Positions 23,177-57,596 of a DNA stretch of 59,242 nucleotides are shown in pieces. Source of the DNA: Deltaproteobacteria bacterium (GTDB lineage Bacteria; Bdellovibrionota_B; Oligoflexia; Oligoflexales; CAIYRB01); assembly GCA_016874735.1 (NCBI GenBank), contig VGTI01000022.1, positions 1 through 59,242 of the forward strand, written 5' to 3'. Positions within the stretch are counted from its first letter, which is position 1, and each line of letters opens with the position of its first letter. Position numbers and translations under genes: made by a program. The notes below the pieces were generated by a model, which was given only the letters and a program-made list of their open reading frames with translations, did not search any database and was not told the DNA's origin.

Positions 23177-24493
23177 ATGACTGAGTGGCGCTATCAAAGT
23201 GGTTTCGGTAATTATTTTGAAACTGAGGCTGATGCGGGGGCTTTACCGATCGGGCGCAACAATCCGCAATGCGCGCCCCACGGCCTCTATGCCGAGCAGA
23301 TCAGTGGAGCCGCTTTCACGGCGCCCAACGCCGAGAACCTGCGGACTTGGATGTATCGCGTCTTGCCTAGCGTGAGACACAGCCCATTTGTGGCAGCGGC
23401 ACTACCAAACTGGCTGAGCGCACCCCTGACGGAAGTACCTCCACCACCGTCGCAGTTACGCTGGGATCCGATGCCAGTGCCCAAACAGCATACGGACTTT
23501 ATCGACGGCGTGGTGACGGTGTGCGGCAACGGTGACGCTGCTGGACGACACGGCACTGCGGTGCACCTTTATGCTGCCAATAAATCGATGACCGATCGCG
23601 CCTTTTATAACGCTGATGGCGAGCTTTTGATTTTACCGGAGGAGGGGCGTCTCTTAATCATCACGGAGCTCGGATGCCTTGCTGTAGAGCCTCTCGAGAT
23701 AGCCGTGGTGCCGCGCGGGATCAAGTTCCAAGTGAGCCTACTAGACGCGACGGCACGTGGCTACATCTGCGAGAATTACGGAGACCCCTTTCAGTTGCCT
23801 TACCGCGGACCTATCGGGGCTAACGGACTAGCCAACACGCGCGACTTCCTCACACCAGTGGCCTGGTACCAGCAGGGGCCAGAGGCCAAGAAGCCCGTAG
23901 AGCTGGTAACTAAGTTTGCCGGTGGATTCTGGCGCTCGCAGTTGCCTGCAACTCCCTTTGATGTTGTAGCCTGGCACGGTAACTACGCACCGTATAAATA
24001 CGACCTGCGCCGTTTCAACACGATGAATACGGTCAGCTTCGATCATCCCGATCCCTCTATATTTACGGTGCTGACGTCACCATCGACTAAGGCGGGCACG
24101 GCCAATTGCGACTTCGTCATCTTTCCACCGCGCTGGCTGGTGGCAGAAGATACGTTTAGACCGCCTTACTTTCACCGCAATGTGATGAGTGAGTATATGG
24201 GGCTGATCTACGGCGTCTACGATGCCAAACCGGCTGGTGGTTTTACGCCGGGCGGGGGCAGCCTTCACAACTGCATGTCACCTCACGGTCCAGAGACGGC
24301 CGCATTTGCAGCAGCGAGCAAGGCTGAGCTAAAGCCGGTGTATCAGGGTGATACAATGGCCTTCATGTTTGAGTCCTCGCTGATTTATAAGCCAACCGCA
24401 TGGGCTCTAAAGACACCGTTGCTGCAAAAAGATTATCTCGACTGCTGGCAGGGACTGACATCGCATCACCAGCGTGAGCGTTCAGGGGGCTGA
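23177..24493 (+). CDS. hmgA: Homogentisate 1,2-dioxygenase
   Basis: This Fe(II) enzyme opens the ring of homogentisate to maleylacetoacetate in tyrosine and phenylalanine breakdown. The 438-residue sequence opens [13 protein letters not shown] and has [20 protein letters not shown], both diagnostic. The iron ligands are in [15 protein letters not shown] (His and Glu) and [12 protein letters not shown] (His). Length matches human HGD (445). It stands alone; fumarylacetoacetase and maleylacetoacetate isomerase are not in the window. The stop overlaps the convergent TPR gene by 12 bases. Confidence 0.97.
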
Positions 24494-26503
24494 GGGATCC
24501 GGTCCCTGGCGACGGCTGGCCTCGATCCTACGGGCAACGTCCGCCGTCCCTGGTTGCTCTGGGGCAATCTGCCGCGCAAGTTTTAGCGCGGCCGCCGCCT
24601 CTGATAGTTCGCCTGCCTCCACGAGGCAACTGGCAAGCGCCAGCTGCACCGAGGCACTGTCAGGACTGGCAGCAGCAGCGCGCCTTAGCCAATGCAGGGC
24701 GTCGTTAAGGCGCATTTGTGTCATATAAACAAATCCAAGATTGGCCATGGCTAGTCCGTGACGCGGATCTAGAAGGAGCGCCGTGCTAAGCGCCTTGATC
24801 GCATCGTCATGACGCTTGGCTTCTCTCAGGAGCTGCCCAAGATCACTGTAGAGATCGGCTTTCGGGGCAAGGGCAATGGCCCGCTCATAAGAAGCGATGG
24901 CGCCATCAACCTGATGCAGCCTGTGCTCGGTAAAACCAAGATTCTTGTGATAGCTAGCGTCTTCCGGAGCCAGTTCCGTGGCGCGCTTGAGATGCACAAG
25001 AGCTGCTGCGTAGTCCCCGCTGCGTGTTAGGGCAACCCCAAGATTAGACCGAGCAGCGGCGAAGTCTGGCCAGATAACAACGGCGCGCTCGAGGATATTC
25101 ACAGCCTCTGCCAATCGTCCCTGTGCAATATAAACTGCACCGAGATTATTTATCGCATCGCGAAAGTCAGGTTTTGCCGCGAGTGCCGCAAGGTAGTGAC
25201 GCTCGGCTTCGGGTAGTTTGCTCTGCCCCATCAGCACCTTGCCCAAATTGTTGTGCGCGAGCCAAGAATCGGGATTGTGCACCAAAGTCTGCTGCCAGAT
25301 CGCCTCTTCATCAACGAAGTGACGCGCCTCACTGCGGGTCATCAGCGCTAGAGTCAACGTCACTATTCCTAGGACTGGCCATGTGATTAACTTTAGGCGC
25401 AAAATTCGCGCTGCCGTATTCACTACCGCGGTGATGGGCGCAATCAGCGCCATGTATTGCCAGTGATCAGCCACAAAGGCAAAGCGCATAAAGTAAATAC
25501 CGTAGATCCCGAGAGCAGGTGCTAGGGCTACACCGTAGTACAAAACACCAGCAAATGGACCGTAGCCAAGGCGTCGTCTCAGTGCCCACGCTCCAAAGGG
25601 TAGCAACGCAGCAAGCATCGTCGGTAAGTAGTATGGTAGGCTGGCAGAGTTAAGGATAATCTTGGGGTAAATGAAGGCAATTTGAGTCGGCCAGAGCGCT
25701 TGTTTTAGGTAGAACCAAAAGTTCCAACCCGCGCGCGCGATGCGTTCAGAAAGTGGTCCTAGATTTAGGTGCTCCCCCGCGGGTAGTAGATGATCGGGTG
25801 CATACCAAGTCACGGCAATCACACCACTCACCAAAGCCAAGATAAAAAACGGCGTGCTGAGCTTGATGCTCCGCCGCAAATCACGTGTGATCACCCAGGT
25901 CGCTGCAGCTTGCACCAAAGGGGCAAAAACCACCGCCGACTTAGTTAGCAGTGCTGCGCCGAAAAGAAGCATCGATCCGAAATACATGCTCATGCGGGCT
26001 CTCTGCGATACCTGCTCAGCACATGTAAGAAATTTGAGGAAGGTGAGCCAGGAGGCCAAACACAGGCAGGAACTCGCCAGTGTTTTGAACTGTACAATCC
26101 AGGCCACAGCCTCTGTATTCACCGGGTGCACTGCAAATATCACAGCGCAGATCCACGCGAGGGGTAGGCGTAGCGTGCGCAGCAAAGCAGCCCATAGGAG
26201 AGCGTTACAGGTATGTAAGACCACGTTTGTCAGGTGATAGGGGTATGTATCCAGACCCCACCAGCGATAGGCCTTAAAAAACCAAGAATAGTGCAGTGGC
26301 CAAAAATCTGGAGCTTGATGGCTAAACCATATTCGTGACAGGGAGCTAAAAGGCGACGCTATAAGTGGATACTGAAAAAGCGCTTCGTTATCATCCCAGA
26401 TGGGGAGTCCGTGTAATGCGGGCGCGTAGATCCATAGGCAAATTGCCCCCATGAGGGACGCAAAGACCGCGGCCTTTAGGAGCTGAAGTCTTGCGCTAGG
26501 CAT
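24482..26503 (-). CDS. TMTC-like multi-pass membrane protein with TPR repeats
   Basis: The 673-residue protein has about ten membrane helices (residues 10-400), then six or seven tetratricopeptide repeats (about 415-660). The N-terminal region has [15 protein letters not shown] and a later [13 protein letters not shown], as in TMTC and GT-C glycosyltransferase-like proteins (PMT/DUF1736 group). The Asp-Asp pair in WDDNE sits where GT-C enzymes keep a catalytic acidic residue. The TPR region has regular LG-x2-Y and A-x3-P periodicity. It may be a lipid-linked-sugar-dependent glycosyltransferase; the acceptor is unknown. It is upstream of, and divergent in nothing with, the SDR gene on the same strand (23-base gap). 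Confidence 0.82.
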
Positions 26504-27923: not shown

Positions 27924-28808
27924 ATGTCGCCCGGAAGTGCTAATCAACAAAGATGTCTGGTGGTTACGGCTGATGACTTTGGTCTGACCGAGGCCATCAC
28001 GGACGGGATCGTCGAGGCCCATCGGAGCGGCGTCGTCCGATCCACCGCTCTCCTCATGAATGGACTGGCTACGGATTATGCCCTGAACCTTAGGCGCCAA
28101 TGCCCGAATTTGGAGATCGGGGCTCATCTCGGCATCGTCGAGGGTTTTAGCCTGCGGGCCAGGAAGAGTAGTCTAACGGATGACCTAAGTTACCTCGGTG
28201 AGGGTGACTGCCTCCATCGAGGCTGGCCTGAATTTATTAAGCTATATTCGCTTGGCCGCATCGATCTGGGTGAGCTGGAGGAGGAACTCGATCTGCAGCT
28301 GGGGCGCATGGCCGAGGCTTTAGGGTCCATTGCATTTGCTAACGGTACGCAGCACCTCCACCTCCTCCCCGGGGTACTGGAAGTCGTCCTCAGGCTCATG
28401 TCCAAGTATGAGATCCCCTGGTTGCGTCTCCCTGATCGTAGCAGAAGGGTCCCAGGTAGCGACCGCCGATGGCCGCAAAACTTGGCCATGCGGGCCCTGG
28501 GAGTCCGGGCACGGCGTCAGGCCCGTCATCTCAACATCGGTGGGCCAAAATATTTCGCTGGATTCGATGTTTGCGGTCGCCTTGATGCCGCTGCGGTCTG
28601 TAAGATTCTGGATGATATGCCCGTCGGCACGATGGAGCTAATGACCCATCCGGGTTTAGATGATCCCTTTTTGCGGCGTCATCTACCCTGGGGGTACCAG
28701 GACTTCGATTGGGCCGGAGAACTCGCCGCTCTGGTCGACCCCGAAGTGAAGGCCACCATCGCGCGCCGTGGTATCCAACTTATACACTTTAAGGATCTCA
28801 GCCTCTGA
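27924..28808 (+). CDS. YdjC/ChbG-type carbohydrate deacetylase, NaxD/HpnK-like
   Basis: This 294-residue protein belongs to the YdjC family of metal-dependent N-deacetylases. Family metal-ligand and active-site residues are visible: TADDFGLTEAITDGIVEAH (Asp-Asp), IGAHLGIVEG (His) and QHLHLLPGV (His-x-His). Start ATG 27924 is chosen because GAGG lies 5 bases upstream; an upstream start has no site. Known relatives are ChbG (chitooligosaccharides), HpnK (hopanoid N-acetylglucosamine) and NaxD (undecaprenyl-phosphate GalNAc in Francisella). The next two genes encode a polyprenyl-phosphate GT2 and an ArnT-like GT39, so the NaxD role fits best here. It is cytoplasmic by lack of a signal peptide. 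Confidence 0.88.
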   Translation: MSPGSANQQRCLVVTADDFGLTEAITDGIVEAHRSGVVRSTALLMNGLATDYALNLRRQCPNLEIGAHLGIVEGFSLRARKSSLTDDLSYLGEGDCLHRGWPEFIKLYSLGRIDLGELEEELDLQLGRMAEALGSIAFANGTQHLHLLPGVLEVVLRLMSKYEIPWLRLPDRSRRVPGSDRRWPQNLAMRALGVRARRQARHLNIGGPKYFAGFDVCGRLDAAAVCKILDDMPVGTMELMTHPGLDDPFLRRHLPWGYQDFDWAGELAALVDPEVKATIARRGIQLIHFKDLSL

Positions 28809-29806
28809 ATACGCAGCGCCCTGAACAATATTCCCTATCGGTAGTTATCCCGGCCTACAACGAGGCCGATTGCATTGCTAAGGTGGCGGCAGAGTTAATC
28901 AGGATACTGGGGGCGCTCACGCCCCAGTTTGAGATCCTGTTCGTCGACGACGGGAGTAAGGACGCCACCTTTGCGCGGATCACGGAGATGGCCGAGGTCG
29001 ACTCTCGCGTGAACGGCATCGCTCTCTCGCGCAATGTCGGACATATGGCGGCCCTGGCATGCGGTCTTGATGCCGCACGCGGTGATGTCGTGATCTGTAT
29101 GGATGCCGACATGCAGCATCCGCCCGAGCTCATCCCGCGCATGATCGAAGCCTGGCGCAGTGGCTACGACGTCGTCAACATGATGCGGCGCAACACGGCC
29201 GAGACCAAGGCCAAGGGTGACTTGCTGTCGCGTCTTTTTTACTGGACCTATAACCGGACCTCAGATGTGCAGATCATTCCGCACAGTCCGGATTTTCGTC
29301 TCCTCGATCGCCGCTGTGTCGATGCCCTGAAGTCGATGCCCGAGCGGCTTAAGTTTTACCGCGGTATGGTTCCCTATATTGGGTTCCGTCAGACTTTGAT
29401 GGAATTTGATTGCCCGCCACGGTTCGCTGGTAAGCGGAGTTACACGCTGCGGAAGTCACTGAAGCTGGCATCCGACGGTATTGTTTCCTTCTCTGACGTC
29501 GGACTCAAACTGCCACTGCTCGTTGGTGGGATCATTTCCGTGCTGGCGATTGCTTACATCATCGTCTCAATCGTGTTGGTGGCACTCGGTATCACGCCGC
29601 TAGCTCCAGGGTGGGTGTCACTGCTCAGCTTTAACGTCCTTAGCCTTGGGCTGAACCTGACGTTTATCGGTGTGTTCGGTCTCTATCTCGGCAAGATCTT
29701 TAACGAGGTTAAAAGGCGTCCGCTGTATTTTGTGCAGACGTCGGTGGGGCAGCCATTGCCGCGCCGTGCGGGCTCTCAGCCCAATGACGACTGGGGTCAG
29801 AGTTGA
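28805..29806 (+). CDS. Polyprenyl-phosphate glycosyltransferase (GT2, ArnC/FlmF-like), CTG start
   Basis: The 333-residue GT2 enzyme has an N-terminal SLSVVIPAYNEADCIA, then LFVDDGSKDAT, CMDADMQHPPEL and the ArnC/DPMS-type middle region. Two C-terminal membrane helices (about 240-310) anchor it in the inner membrane. Such enzymes move a sugar from UDP or GDP to a polyprenyl phosphate. The nearest GTG (28883) would remove the VVIPAYNE motif, so translation must start upstream. Between the stop at 28790 and that motif the only plausible start is CTG 28805, in a CTGA overlap with the deacetylase stop. AAGGA lies 9 bases upstream of it. The gene ends in a TTGA overlap with the next gene. Confidence 0.88.
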   Translation: MNTQRPEQYSLSVVIPAYNEADCIAKVAAELIRILGALTPQFEILFVDDGSKDATFARITEMAEVDSRVNGIALSRNVGHMAALACGLDAARGDVVICMDADMQHPPELIPRMIEAWRSGYDVVNMMRRNTAETKAKGDLLSRLFYWTYNRTSDVQIIPHSPDFRLLDRRCVDALKSMPERLKFYRGMVPYIGFRQTLMEFDCPPRFAGKRSYTLRKSLKLASDGIVSFSDVGLKLPLLVGGIISVLAIAYIIVSIVLVALGITPLAPGWVSLLSFNVLSLGLNLTFIGVFGLYLGKIFNEVKRRPLYFVQTSVGQPLPRRAGSQPNDDWGQS

Positions 29807-31233
29807 GCGCCGGATCGCAGGCAGCGTGGCAAAATCGATTACCCTGGTTAGTGGTGATCGGTAGCGCGATTGCATGCTTTTTCCAGCTCGGTGATCATGG
29901 GCTTAAGATGTGGGACGAGACGCGTCACGCCGAGGCGGCATGGCAGATGCTGCAGCGTGGTGACTACATCGATTACTATTTTGACGATGTGCGCGACGAC
30001 TGGCTGGCTAAACCGCCTTTGGGTGTTTGGCTCATTGCTCTTGCTTATCGATTACTCGGCTTTAACGAGTGGGCTCTGCGCACCCCGTCGGCCTTAGCTG
30101 GCGTAGGCATCATTACGCTCACCTATGCACTAGTGCGGCTCTATCGCAGTGCGACGCTGGCAGCGTTAGTCGCGCTGGTCCTGATGCTCTGTCGCGGGAT
30201 CGTTGGTCATCATATGGCGCGTAGCGGCGATCTCGACGCTGTCTACGTGCTCACGGCCATGGCGATGATTTACCTATTTCAGCTGGCCGAAGTACGCGGC
30301 AAGCGCTGGCTATTGCCACTCGCCGGACTGTGCGGTGGCCTCTGTTTCATGACTAAGGGTTTTATGATGGGCATATTTCTGCCCGGTCTAGGACTCTATG
30401 TCCTGTTGAGTGGGCAGCTCGTGCGTCTACTCAAGGACTGGCTCTTTTGGCTCGGGACTCTCATCATGGGAGCGGCCATAGGTGGTTGGTATTTGGCGGT
30501 GAAAAGACTGGGCACCCCCTTTGCGAACAGTCAATACGGCGTCGATGCATGGGACGTTATGGTCAACTACGACATCTTCCGCCGCTACACGGAAAAGCTC
30601 GAGGGCAACAACACCACATCATGGTTCGTCATGGAGGCGCTGGATATCAGATTTGGGCCCTGGCTTTATCTTCTGATACTCCTACTACTCTATCTAGGCT
30701 GGCAGCACCGTTCGACCACGCGTCAAATACTTAGTGGCATATGGAATTATCTGCGCGCTGATCATCTGATGCTGCTCAGCCTGTGTATGGTGATACCTAC
30801 GTGCGCCCTCTTCGCATCGTCTGCGACCAAGTTTAACTGGTACGTCGCCATCACAATTCCCTTTCTGGCTATATTGACCGTCGTGCTTGCAGACATGGCA
30901 GCCAAAATCGATAAGCGCGTGTGGCGGTTATTTGCTCTCGTCACGGTGATTGGTGTGGGTGGTCAGCTGCAGTACCTCTTTCAGCCGGAGCACGGCCTCT
31001 CCCACGAAGTGTTGCAGCACAGCGATGAAGTGATGCAAGCACGCCATATTTACGCCGCGCGTCAACCACTCTTCAATACACGTCTCGCTCTCAAGTGGCG
31101 CGGCCGCCAGATCGAACTCGCCACAGATGACGTACTGCTAAGGCCTCGCACGTCAGTCAGCCCTAAGATCGACCGCATGGACGAGCTGAGTGGTGGTTAT
31201 AGCTTACTGCTTAAGCCTGCGGCGGTGGATTGA
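29803..31233 (+). CDS. ArnT/FlmK-like GT39 glycosyltransferase
   Basis: The 476-residue protein has about 11 membrane helices. Its first periplasmic loop contains KMWDETRHAEAAWQMLQRGD, followed by WLAKPPLGVWLIALAYRLLG. This is the GT-C/PMT (ArnT) pattern, with the acidic pair in MWDE where ArnT has its catalytic residue. Family enzymes move a sugar from undecaprenyl phosphate to lipid A or other acceptors on the periplasmic side. Translation starts at TTG 29803, overlapping the GT2 stop, so it is coupled. With the deacetylase and GT2 genes it forms a FlmF2-NaxD-FlmK-like set, which would put a deacetylated amino sugar on lipid A. Confidence 0.87.
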   Translation: MSAGSQAAWQNRLPWLVVIGSAIACFFQLGDHGLKMWDETRHAEAAWQMLQRGDYIDYYFDDVRDDWLAKPPLGVWLIALAYRLLGFNEWALRTPSALAGVGIITLTYALVRLYRSATLAALVALVLMLCRGIVGHHMARSGDLDAVYVLTAMAMIYLFQLAEVRGKRWLLPLAGLCGGLCFMTKGFMMGIFLPGLGLYVLLSGQLVRLLKDWLFWLGTLIMGAAIGGWYLAVKRLGTPFANSQYGVDAWDVMVNYDIFRRYTEKLEGNNTTSWFVMEALDIRFGPWLYLLILLLLYLGWQHRSTTRQILSGIWNYLRADHLMLLSLCMVIPTCALFASSATKFNWYVAITIPFLAILTVVLADMAAKIDKRVWRLFALVTVIGVGGQLQYLFQPEHGLSHEVLQHSDEVMQARHIYAARQPLFNTRLALKWRGRQIELATDDVLLRPRTSVSPKIDRMDELSGGYSLLLKPAAVD

Positions 31234-31747: not shown

Positions 31748-31867
31748 ATATACCGTTTTTAGTCACAACTTAAACATCGAGGTCCGTCGAAGCTGCCGGA
31801 TGGCGCGTACTCCGAGCGGGTCGGATCTTGTCATCCTCTATGAAAACGGTATATACTGGTATATACC
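31748..31867. promoter_or_regulatory. Repeated palindromic operator-like sites before the TA-like pair
   Basis: ATATACCGTTTT (31748-31759) and its exact complement AAAACGGTATAT (31843-31854) form a 12-base inverted repeat 83 bases apart. The second copy is the left arm of a perfect palindrome, GGTATATAC-TG-GTATATACC (31848-31867). Such spaced palindromes just before a toxin-antitoxin gene pair are typical binding sites for the ribbon-helix-helix antitoxin, which then represses its own operon. The right end of the palindrome is 20 bases before the likely start codon of the nucleotidyltransferase gene. Confidence 0.6.
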
Positions 31868-31887
31868 TTGACTTCGCGGGAGTGATT

Positions 31888-32358
31888 TTGAGCACATTAA
31901 CGCGCATCATCAAAGCTTTTGACGCAGCTGGCGTCTCCTACGCACTAGTTGGTGGATACGCTGTGGCGCTTCATGGTGCTGTCCGAGGCACTGTGGATAT
32001 CGACTGTATTATCCGGCACACGGAGGACTCATTTGTTGCTTGTGAGGCGGCTCTGCGCTCCATAGGTATGGAGCCGAGGCTGCCGGTTACAGCGCGCGAG
32101 GTATTTCGGTTTCGTGAGGAGTATATTAATCGCCGGAATTTGATCGCATGGAGTTTTTACAATCCTGTTAATCCGGTAGAAGTGGTTGATATCATCATCA
32201 CTCATAACCTTGCGCACCTAAAGGCTGTGATCATGCGCGCAGGTTTGGACAAAGTGAAGGTGCTATCGATTCCACATTTAATTGAGATGAAGCGCGCCGC
32301 TGGCCGTCCCCAGGATATTGAAGACGTTAAAATGCTGGAGGCGCTTCGTGGTCGTTAA
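31888..32358 (+). CDS. Nucleotidyltransferase-fold protein, candidate toxin
   Basis: This is a 156-residue protein of the minimal nucleotidyltransferase superfamily. The motif GGYAVALHGAVRGTVDIDCI gives the GG...DxD metal-binding pattern, and a third acidic residue is in VEVVDIIITH. Related proteins include AbiEii and MenT toxins (tRNA nucleotidyltransferases) and DUF6036/NTP_transf_5 proteins. TTG 31888 is chosen because GGGAG lies 5 bases upstream and the operator palindrome would otherwise lie inside the gene; GTG 31882 and TTG 31828 are alternatives. It overlaps the ribbon-helix-helix gene by 11 bases. The toxin role is inferred from context. Confidence 0.75.
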   Translation: MSTLTRIIKAFDAAGVSYALVGGYAVALHGAVRGTVDIDCIIRHTEDSFVACEAALRSIGMEPRLPVTAREVFRFREEYINRRNLIAWSFYNPVNPVEVVDIIITHNLAHLKAVIMRAGLDKVKVLSIPHLIEMKRAAGRPQDIEDVKMLEALRGR

Positions 32359-32626
32359 GAAAAAGAAGAAGACGCAATCTCGCCCAGTCCAACGCGCCAA
32401 AACGCGCGACGAGCTCGTTGGACCGATGGATGATGTCACGCCCATTATTGAGTTCCTCGAGTCTTTTCGTGATCTGACCGATCCGCGCGCCAAGCAAGCA
32501 CTTAAGTTGATTAGCATCAAGATACCAGAACAGCTACTTACCGCATTCCGTTATAAGGCAGAGCGGCACGGCGTGCCGTATCAGACCATGATCAAGAAGC
32601 TCATGATGGAGTGGTTGCGCAAGTAG
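32348..32626 (+). CDS. Ribbon-helix-helix (CopG/BrnA-like) protein, candidate antitoxin
   Basis: This is a 92-residue protein with a lysine-rich N-terminus (VVKKKKKTQSR) and a C-terminal ribbon-helix-helix: the strand LISIKIPEQLL, then helices around RYKAERHGVPYQTMIKKLM and EWLRK. This is the CopG/BrnA antitoxin pattern, except that it is C-terminal in the protein. GTG 32348 is preceded by GGAGG at 6 bases and gives a better start than the upstream frame opening at 32318. It overlaps the nucleotidyltransferase gene by 11 bases, so the two are translationally coupled. It probably binds the palindromes upstream of the pair. The order, toxin first then antitoxin, is the less common one. Confidence 0.72.
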   Translation: MVVKKKKKTQSRPVQRAKTRDELVGPMDDVTPIIEFLESFRDLTDPRAKQALKLISIKIPEQLLTAFRYKAERHGVPYQTMIKKLMMEWLRK

Positions 32627-32683: not shown

Positions 32684-34255
32684 TCAGTTGGGAACCCACT
32701 CGTAATAACGATACCCGACGTCCATCCTGTCCTTTGATTCTTCGTGACCGACACGGATCAGGGCGAACTCACCTTGAGGCTGCCTCACACTGCGCGGCTT
32801 CGTTGCCAGATGAAGCGCTCCCTGGTCTTTGTCCACAGCCACATGTGGTTGAATCACTCCATCACGCAAGGTGCCGGCGCTGGCACCTTGGCGTTTGACC
32901 TCGGTCTGGGCAGCAAAGGTGACCTCGCTGGCAGCGTGTATGGTCTCGTAAGTTGCGACGGATAGTTCAAACCGTGCACCTTTGCGATCGTGCTCGCGCG
33001 CCAGCCAATCAGTAACTGGTGTACCTGAATACACATCTTTGTACTGATCGGTGAATTCTGCCAACAACACTTTAGCCGTGGCGCCGCTGCCGTAGGATAG
33101 GAGCAGAGTTTTGTGGCCGGTTAAATCCTTGCCGCGAAGGTTTGCGTCTTCAATGAGACTAGCGAGGGCAAGAAAAAGTGAGCCGGTATAGATGTTGCCA
33201 ATCTCGCGCGTGAACTTAAGCGACGGAGCGACCTTATCCTGATAGGCCTGACGAAACTCCGGCAGTTTGGCAATAGCTTTGTCCACAGCAGTTTTTTGCT
33301 CGGATGTGGCATCTGCAGTGAGACTGCAGGTCAGCTCAACCGACCCTTTAAATTGGTCATGGTGACGCCACAGTTTGGCTCCTACCCGAGCCATGGCGTA
33401 CTCGGCCATTTTGGGGAAGGGAACATGGAAGACAAAATGATCGACGAGGTCATAGAGATCCTGAGACCTGGAGTCGCTGCGCGTTAAGAGCTGCTCCTTC
33501 AATGTCTTTTTATTCAAGAAGTAATCGAGACCCTTCTCGATGCAGTCTAGGTAAACGCCGATGGAATATTTACCGTCGACGACTGCAGTCTTTGAATAGT
33601 TGGGGCGGAAAAAGTCCCGCTCGTCTCGCGTCACCGTGGCGATCAGCGTCGGATCGATCTTGAGGAGCCGCGGATCGCGGCTAATCAGCATGGCGACGGC
33701 ACCGGCGCCTTGCGTGTATTCGCCTGGAGACTCGAGAGAATAGCGCGCAACGTCTGAGGCGACTACGACAGCATAGGGACGATCGAATATCTCAGCCTTA
33801 ACCGCAGCCAGTGCAGATTCAAGAGCATACGTAGCGCCAGCACAGGCAAACTGATACTGCGGGCAACCAACGTGAGCGAGATCGACCTCGTAATGGCGCT
33901 CGATCATGCCGAGGACGTAGGCGGCCACCGATTTCGATTGGTCCACCGTGGACTCTGTACCGACGGCTAGATAGGCGATATCGGTGGGATCGATGCCGGA
34001 GGTTTCGATGAGCTTCTTCACCGCCATCGCGGCCATGGTGGCGATATCCTCGTGCGCATCGGGAATAGCCATGCGTTCCACACCAATGCCAGCGCGGATT
34101 TTACCTATTAGATTGTCTACGTTGTCAGCGCCGCTTGATGCCAAGCGTTGGTGCGCCCATTCACCGGTGAGATCGACATAGGGCTTTGGTACATAAACTG
34201 CGAGGGCATCGATACCAACTACAGTGGAAGTAAGTCCGGGGGGGATCGTCGTCAT
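32684..34255 (-). CDS. Hydroxymethylglutaryl-CoA synthase family protein
   Basis: The 523-residue protein joins acetyl-CoA and acetoacetyl-CoA to HMG-CoA in the mevalonate route. Family residues are clear: LAVGTESTVDQSKS with the catalytic Glu, YQFACAGATYALESAL with the nucleophile Cys (about residue 138), and FHVPFPKMAEYA with the catalytic His. Most bacterial MvaS are about 390-400 residues; this one is clearly longer and nearer the eukaryotic size. ATG 34255 is preferred, with GGGAG 5 bases upstream; TTG 34267 lacks a site. No other mevalonate gene is nearby, so a role in polyketide beta-branching or another pathway is also possible. Confidence 0.88.
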   Translation of the reverse strand: MTTIPPGLTSTVVGIDALAVYVPKPYVDLTGEWAHQRLASSGADNVDNLIGKIRAGIGVERMAIPDAHEDIATMAAMAVKKLIETSGIDPTDIAYLAVGTESTVDQSKSVAAYVLGMIERHYEVDLAHVGCPQYQFACAGATYALESALAAVKAEIFDRPYAVVVASDVARYSLESPGEYTQGAGAVAMLISRDPRLLKIDPTLIATVTRDERDFFRPNYSKTAVVDGKYSIGVYLDCIEKGLDYFLNKKTLKEQLLTRSDSRSQDLYDLVDHFVFHVPFPKMAEYAMARVGAKLWRHHDQFKGSVELTCSLTADATSEQKTAVDKAIAKLPEFRQAYQDKVAPSLKFTREIGNIYTGSLFLALASLIEDANLRGKDLTGHKTLLLSYGSGATAKVLLAEFTDQYKDVYSGTPVTDWLAREHDRKGARFELSVATYETIHAASEVTFAAQTEVKRQGASAGTLRDGVIQPHVAVDKDQGALHLATKPRSVRQPQGEFALIRVGHEESKDRMDVGYRYYEWVPN

Positions 34256-34366
34256 ACAAGCTCCCAATCTGGTGATTGCAGTCTAACTATCTGAAATAAT
34301 TGTGATCGGTGGCATTATGGAAATTTATTGGCCAAATGGCCAGTAATAATCTTGCAATAAAAACGT

Positions 34367-56293: not shown

Positions 56294-57469
56294 TTAGCTA
56301 ACTTTCCCTAAACTCTGATCCTGCTCTTGGGTTTCATATTTGGGGACGGCCTCGACACGACCACCAGTCAGCAGCTTCAATTTGTTGCCCCGCCAAACAA
56401 TATGGCGCCCGATCAGGGAATGGAGCCAATTGAACGGCGCTAGGAGCTCTTTAAGCAACCAGATGGCAGGATTGATCCAAGTGTTGATGATGGCTCTCTG
56501 GACGAACAAGTCACAGAGGAACCACAAGGCATTGGTTGCTAAAACAGCTTCAAGGGCTAACTGGGGTGCAAAGCCGGATATGCCTAGATAAGCAAGCACC
56601 GAGGCCGGCAGGGGGCGATGGAGCCAATCGATGAAAAAGATCCAAGGCGTGGCGTATTTCCGCAAGATGTGCCAACGCAGGTGACGGAGCCAGAATTCCT
56701 GAAAGCTCCGTTGACCTATGAATTGCCGCACAGGCGCATGGGAAAGCGAGACTTTTTTGCCTTTGCGCTTGCAAGCCATGCCAAAGGCAAAATCTTCACA
56801 CGCAAAGTGACCAAATACCTTGAAGCCACCAAGCTGCTCTGCCAAGCTGCGTGCGAACATCATGGTCGAGCCTAAGCAAAAAGTTTGATGAGCGAGTCGC
56901 GCTTGGACTTGCGACCGAATGTAAAATGAATTCATGTGGTATTCTTCGAGCTTGCCGCCAATACCTTTGCCACCGTAGCCACACCTTAAACCCGTAACCA
57001 CTCCCGTGTCGGGTCCATAAACATCGAGCAGGTTCTGCAGGTAATCATCAGAAGCTCTGATATAGCTGTCGCTGATAACGATGAAGTCGTGCCTTGCTGC
57101 ATCGAGAGAACGTGCCAGATTATTCACCTTGGGGTTGGGGGCGATCACATCGTCACCAATGATGAGGTGTGCGGGAGCGCGGGGGTAGGCCGCTAAGAGT
57201 CGACGCACGACAGCTATGGCTGGATCTTGATCATCGGCGACGGAGAAAATGACCTCGTATTGGGGGTAGTCTAGGTTTAGAAAAGTTTCGAGGTTTTCGT
57301 AGAGACCTGAGTCGACCCCTTTTAGGGGCTTTAGGATTGAGAAAGAGGGTGTGCCTTCGGCCTTGCGCTCACGTATGCGCGTCCAAATCACCGTCGCTAA
57401 ACTGCCACCAACAACTAGGATTACATTCACAGTCCAAATTGTGAATGCGACGCCGTGAAACAAATCCAT
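56294..57469 (-). CDS. GT21-like glycosyltransferase (ceramide glucosyltransferase/HpnI family)
   Basis: The protein from ATG 57469 has 391 residues; the site GAGG lies 6 bases upstream. It has a first membrane helix, the GT-A domain with SILKPLKGVDSGLYENLETF, VADDQDPAIAVV and SDSYIRASDDYL (D1/D2), GHFACEDFAFG (acidic acceptor site) and RHLRWHI (the R-x-x-R-W motif of processive-type GTs). Further membrane helices follow at the C-terminus. The family includes ceramide glucosyltransferase and HpnI, which adds N-acetylglucosamine to bacteriohopanetetrol. HpnI pairs with the HpnK deacetylase in hopanoid synthesis; the only YdjC deacetylase here is 28 kb away, in a different setting. No squalene-hopene cyclase is in view. 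Confidence 0.85.
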   Translation of the reverse strand: MDLFHGVAFTIWTVNVILVVGGSLATVIWTRIRERKAEGTPSFSILKPLKGVDSGLYENLETFLNLDYPQYEVIFSVADDQDPAIAVVRRLLAAYPRAPAHLIIGDDVIAPNPKVNNLARSLDAARHDFIVISDSYIRASDDYLQNLLDVYGPDTGVVTGLRCGYGGKGIGGKLEEYHMNSFYIRSQVQARLAHQTFCLGSTMMFARSLAEQLGGFKVFGHFACEDFAFGMACKRKGKKVSLSHAPVRQFIGQRSFQEFWLRHLRWHILRKYATPWIFFIDWLHRPLPASVLAYLGISGFAPQLALEAVLATNALWFLCDLFVQRAIINTWINPAIWLLKELLAPFNWLHSLIGRHIVWRGNKLKLLTGGRVEAVPKYETQEQDQSLGKVS

Positions 57470-57596
57470 AGTTAGCCTCGACTGCGTTGGGAATATGCCG
57501 ATAATGATAACAGGGACTATATTGTTGGTCATTAGGCTAAATGTTGGGGTAATTTAAGTTTACTCAATATTTGCAGTCAATTTATGGGGAGCAATT

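Follow-up and report, generated by a model that had tools for sequence, protein, structure and literature searches.

A three-gene operon for putative amino-sugar decoration of the cell envelope in an Oligoflexales bacterium

Genes for a YdjC-family deacetylase, a polyprenyl-phosphate glycosyltransferase and an ArnT-like transferase lie side by side in the genome of an uncultured Oligoflexales bacterium. Do they form a module that decorates the cell envelope with an amino sugar, and are they kin to the NaxD/FlmF2/FlmK systems that they call to mind? We analyzed the locus within a 59,242-nucleotide stretch of DNA, hereafter the window. Several congeners come from lake assemblies, and we describe the host as a freshwater bacterium. 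Overall, the three genes probably make up a self-contained module that decorates the envelope with an amino sugar.

Architecture and conservation of the operon

A Pfam profile search of the frames between positions 27924 and 31233 identified three co-directional genes, encoding YdjC, GT2 and PMT_2/GT39 proteins. The features are as follows.

27924..28808, + strand: YdjC-family N-deacetylase, first gene, 294 aa (Pfam YdjC, 168 bits)
28791..28795, + strand: probable Shine-Dalgarno sequence AAGGA for the GT2 gene, 9 nt before the CTG, read from the sequence and kept in two congeners
28805..29806, + strand: GT2 polyprenyl-phosphate glycosyltransferase with hydrophobic C-terminal segments (Pfam Glycos_transf_2, 107 bits)
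29803..31233, + strand: GT39/ArnT-like GT-C membrane transferase, 476 aa (Pfam PMT_2, 70 bits)

Reading the codons in the sequence bore out the coupled overlaps, CTGA and then TTGA, described in the first-pass annotation: the YdjC stop codon TGA (28806-28808) overlaps a GT2 frame running from CTG at 28805, and the GT2 stop codon TGA (29804-29806) overlaps a GT39 frame running from TTG at 29803. The domain assignments likewise agreed with that annotation in placing the three activities together, in the order deacetylase, GT2, GT39. The earliest ATG, GTG or TTG codon in the GT2 frame is the GTG at 28883. Since a start there would remove the conserved SVVIPAYNE motif, and since AAGGA is found 9 nt upstream of the CTG, the GT2 probably starts at the in-frame CTG at 28805. 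The same AAGGA-9 nt-CTG layout is kept in two congeners, where an ATG or TTG follows the CTG after 9 nt. No sigma-70-like promoter stands out for the operon. Taken together, YdjC, GT2 and GT39 form a tightly coupled operon.

Each of the three genes has one close copy in the host genome, which contains elsewhere three further GT39-class stretches above the PMT_2 cut-off and a fourth below it. All three genes occur together in four of the five sampled congeners, two of which (L017 and L018) have flanking genes unlike those of the window, while YdjC, a close GT2 and GT39 are all absent from the fifth (G004). Because the set is retained in these four genomes, two of them with different surroundings, and jointly absent from the fifth, it represents a conserved module and not a chance adjacency. 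lpxC is also present in the host, and lipid A should thus be available there. With a completeness of 96.8% for the metagenome-assembled host genome, the gene absences reported below are likely, not certain.

The surrounding DNA has features of its own. Positions 24482-26503 encode a 673-aa membrane protein with TPR repeats, which by eye resembles TMTC-type transferases; in an Omnitrophota genome (L040:950-2740), the gene for a similar TPR membrane protein directly adjoins a YdjC gene. At 31828-32626, the frame for a DUF6036-type nucleotidyltransferase precedes a small one that overlaps it across a poly-A run; the two could represent a pair resembling a toxin-antitoxin system or a gene in decay. 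An HMG-CoA synthase (32684-34267) points to a mevalonate pathway or to beta-branching in the host.

Kinship of the deacetylase and the GT2

The deacetylase harbors the conserved positions D17/D18 (ADD motif), H68, H144/H146 (HxH pair) and H242, and the HP motif is kept. A phylogeny of 69 YdjC proteins placed it in a six-member clade (support 99-100) outside the naxD-type and HpnK clades, composed of three sequences from the window's genus, two from another Oligoflexales genus and one from an Opitutia genome. The naxD-type clade (18 rows, including A. baumannii) had a support of 99, as had the window's own clade outside it and the HpnK clade, and ChbG formed a pair of its own. In approximately unbiased (AU) tests, deep ties of the window's clade to the naxD clade (p 0.42) and to ChbG (p 0.56) were not rejected, leaving NaxD, HpnK and ChbG all as candidates for the nearest outgroup. 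For the GT2, the nearest PDB sequences were sll0501 (GtrB; E 2e-71) and then ArnC (E 7e-39), and the same six loci grouped together in its tree (100/99), apart from the naxD-linked GT2s. Because the same six loci form a clade for either protein (YdjC 99-100, GT2 100/99), the deacetylase and the GT2 have moved together as a pair.

The best NCBIfam match of the deacetylase was HpnK (TIGR03473; 134 bits), and an HpnI-like GT21 is encoded at 56294-57532 of the same window, which could place the operon in hopanoid biosynthesis. We consider this extremely improbable: the score lies below the HpnK cut-off of 232.6, the protein is separate from the HpnK clade (99), HpnK loci are mostly found near HpnI whereas the window's deacetylase has no adjacent HpnI, and a squalene-hopene cyclase was not found in the host or in the related genomes. 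The absence of the cyclase from the host, together with the separate clade, led us to drop the hopanoid reading. Given a genome without this cyclase, the GT21 itself (250 bits; cut-off, 310) is probably a ceramide- or lipid-glycosylating enzyme. It is also very unlikely, if slightly less so, that the protein is a ChbG-type chitooligosaccharide deacetylase whose neighbors are unrelated to it. The YdjC fold and active-site motif are common to both, the identity to E. coli ChbG is 34% over 237 columns, and the p value of 0.56 leaves room for a deep ChbG tie; however, the deacetylase reached only 109 bits on the ChbG model (NF002559; cut-off, 227), which is why the ChbG reading was dropped, it is tightly linked to a polyprenyl-phosphate GT2 in several lineages, and no chb-type genes were recognized beside it. 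The first-pass annotation had named a deacetylase grouping with ChbG, or a GT39 grouping with protein O-mannosyltransferases (PMTs), as results that would contradict it; instead, the former has a YdjC clade of its own and the latter is closer to ArnT.

A. baumannii (CP040041) harbors a ChbG/HpnK-family deacetylase, a GT2, a GtrA and a GT39 in a row. The exact PmrA box published for naxD (PMC9431647) is found in CP040041 at L212:5882-5898, 96 nt upstream of the deacetylase, with 0 mismatches and none expected by chance, and we conclude from this box that the locus is the naxD operon. Published work connects A. baumannii NaxD with the galactosamine that lipid A carries (PMC6635527, PMC10927774). 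This operon shares with the window the three activities, their order and overlapping genes, but it carries GtrA between GT2 and GT39 and is PmrA controlled, while no PmrA box was found in the window. The identities between the two sets are 26% for YdjC, 37% for GT2 and 25% for GT39, and the window's deacetylase and GT2 belong to other clades than those of the Acinetobacter naxD set; judging from these sequences, the window proteins do not appear to be orthologues of the NaxD set.

In other systems, the likeness is one of logic or layout. The pathway logic of Francisella FlmF2/NaxD/FlmK is the same as that of the window, and we take Francisella naxD to be FTN_0544. Kinship to the Francisella set was judged via the Acinetobacter anchor and gammaproteobacterial loci in place of Francisella sequences; scanning the Cupriavidus family yielded three naxD-type loci. 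Enterobacterial Arn also relies on a GT2 to make a lipid-linked sugar, which is deformylated and then moved by ArnT, the nearest fold of the window's GT39, but the sugar is Ara4N and not a hexosamine, and the ArnD deformylase stands where the window has YdjC. ArnD is a deformylase of the NodB class. No arn genes were recognized in the window. Francisella flmF2 and flmK have neighboring locus numbers, FTN0545-0546 (PMC4688374), and Bordetella lgmA-D, which place GlcN on lipid A phosphates, make up one locus (PMC11895810); the latter, compared here from its description, is a compact lipid A amino-sugar locus like that of the window but with four genes. In mycobacteria, galactosamine reaches arabinogalactan through PpgS and Rv3779 via polyprenyl-P-GalNAc, deacetylation and GT-C transfer, in a pathway whose deacetylase and flippase are still to be identified (PMC9671496), and PpgS is of another GT2 class than the window's.

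Compact operons of this type are thus already known, since A. baumannii has the window's order plus GtrA. The claim of an unrecognized compact form could not be upheld in view of this naxD-GT2-GtrA-GT39 order, the adjacency of flmF2 and flmK and the single lgmA-D locus. Nor did "FlmF2-NaxD-FlmK-like" hold as a statement of kinship, as the deacetylase and the GT2 lie outside the NaxD-linked clades. The operon would work like the NaxD modules but appears to be a separate lineage.

The membrane transferase and its acceptor

Against PDB sequences, the GT39 matched ArnT (E 3e-8), and it scored 74 bits on the ArnT model (NF009784; cut-off, 567), on which the Acinetobacter GT39 scored 186. Its AlphaFold model (pLDDT 80, pTM 0.83) gave ArnT 5f15 as the best Foldseek match (E 1e-8), with oligosaccharyltransferases and Pmt4 at about 1e-4; the TM-scores of about 0.6 indicate a shared GT-C fold and are not proof of function. 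When aligned at the ArnT core positions named in PMC8306577, the protein retains the D and R of DExR, the K before P, the later D, the K of TKG, the R and the Y. ArnT Glu84 is replaced by alanine, at a position that also varies in naxD-type GT39s. The GT39 tree gives the protein a long, separate branch and does not resolve where this branch belongs. Protein mannosylation was dropped as a function, as the protein is without the PMT_4TMC domain (Pfam) and its fold is closer to ArnT than to Pmt4. On sequence and on the predicted model, the GT39 thus appears nearer to ArnT than to PMTs. With ArnT as the closest solved structure, the ArnT-like label given to the GT39 in the first-pass annotation is supported, as is the logic of making Und-P-HexNAc, deacetylating it and transferring the sugar.

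Lipid A is a plausible acceptor in the host and the likeliest single one, with a probability of about one half. That the chemistry is the same but the acceptor is another one, such as the core or O-antigen of LPS, a different glycan of the envelope or a protein at the surface, is possible, and we give it somewhat less weight. The partners of the YdjC-GT2 pair vary: the window and L032 have an ArnT-like GT39, L137 has a PMT-type protein that carries PMT_4TMC, and L020 has a GT-C-like protein that is unclassified. A second Oligoflexales genus has the same pair coupled with an unclassified membrane protein instead of the GT39, and the acceptor may hence differ there; in the gammaproteobacterial locus L137, a related GT2-YdjC pair adjoins the PMT-type protein. 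Genomes of Cellulomonas, Miniimonas, Actinotalea and Chloroflexi, where a search for LpxC gave nothing, also contain distant YdjC-GT2 pairs with shorter GT2s, but these are weaker evidence because the GT2s are of another class. We take Bdellovibrio to belong to the same phylum as the host. Its lipid A is neutral, with mannose replacing the phosphates (PMC7468853). Against another acceptor, ArnT is the closest match of the window's GT39 by both sequence and fold, and the protein retains most of the ArnT core and has no PMT_4TMC. Overall, the deacetylase-GT2 pair represents the stable core, and the membrane transferase has been swapped between lineages.

The survey of these loci gave some additional observations. 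The 1,238-aa product of L137:1258-4971 combines PMT and PMT_4TMC domains with a long N-terminal extension, and L138 has the same layout. In L033-L037 and L066, actinobacterial and Chloroflexi YdjC genes (Omnitrophota in L035) lie near a short GT2, some of them near a GT-C-like membrane protein. The control, Corynebacterium glutamicum, had no YdjC.

Proposed pathway and its significance

On the basis of the protein families, an inner-membrane-anchored GT2 would transfer an N-acetylhexosamine from its UDP form to undecaprenyl phosphate, and the cytoplasmic YdjC would then deacetylate the lipid-linked sugar to Und-P-GlcN or Und-P-GalN. Many of the naxD-type loci in this survey have, next to the GT2, either GtrA itself or a frame that resembles it, the resemblance being judged by eye for some frames. 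GtrA was not found in the host or in eight related genomes, nor LAB_N in the host genome, and both were dropped as flippase candidates as neither is encoded in the host genome. The lipid-linked sugar would thus be turned over by another flippase, for which no gene was found. On the periplasmic side, the ArnT-like GT39 would transfer this positively charged sugar to an acceptor in the envelope, with the phosphates of lipid A or some other LPS component as the most likely candidates. The polymyxin resistance proposed in the first-pass annotation is a putative phenotype of the operon.

Envelope decoration is favored by the protein families, the coupling of the genes, their conservation as a unit, the intact motifs, lpxC in the host and a studied Acinetobacter relative with the same gene order. 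Against it stand the low identity to the Acinetobacter set, the change of Glu84 to alanine, a GT39 score below the ArnT cut-off and the lack of GtrA and LAB_N. More tentatively, the YdjC-GT2 pair could be an exchangeable Und-P-hexosamine platform of diderm and monoderm phyla, combined with varied GT-C transferases (ArnT-like, PMT-like or unclassified) that put cationic amino sugars on varied acceptors beyond lipid A, of which the window would be one branch with its flippase yet to be found.

The operon would take cationic envelope decoration past the NaxD systems of proteobacteria by adding a second lineage of deacetylase-GT2 pairs, found in Oligoflexales and Verrucomicrobiota. Judging from the exchange of partners, the GT-C protein may be what picks the acceptor, and the actinobacterial YdjC-GT2 pairs offer a lead for lipid-linked amino-sugar deacetylases in monoderms, outside the Gram-negative bacteria.
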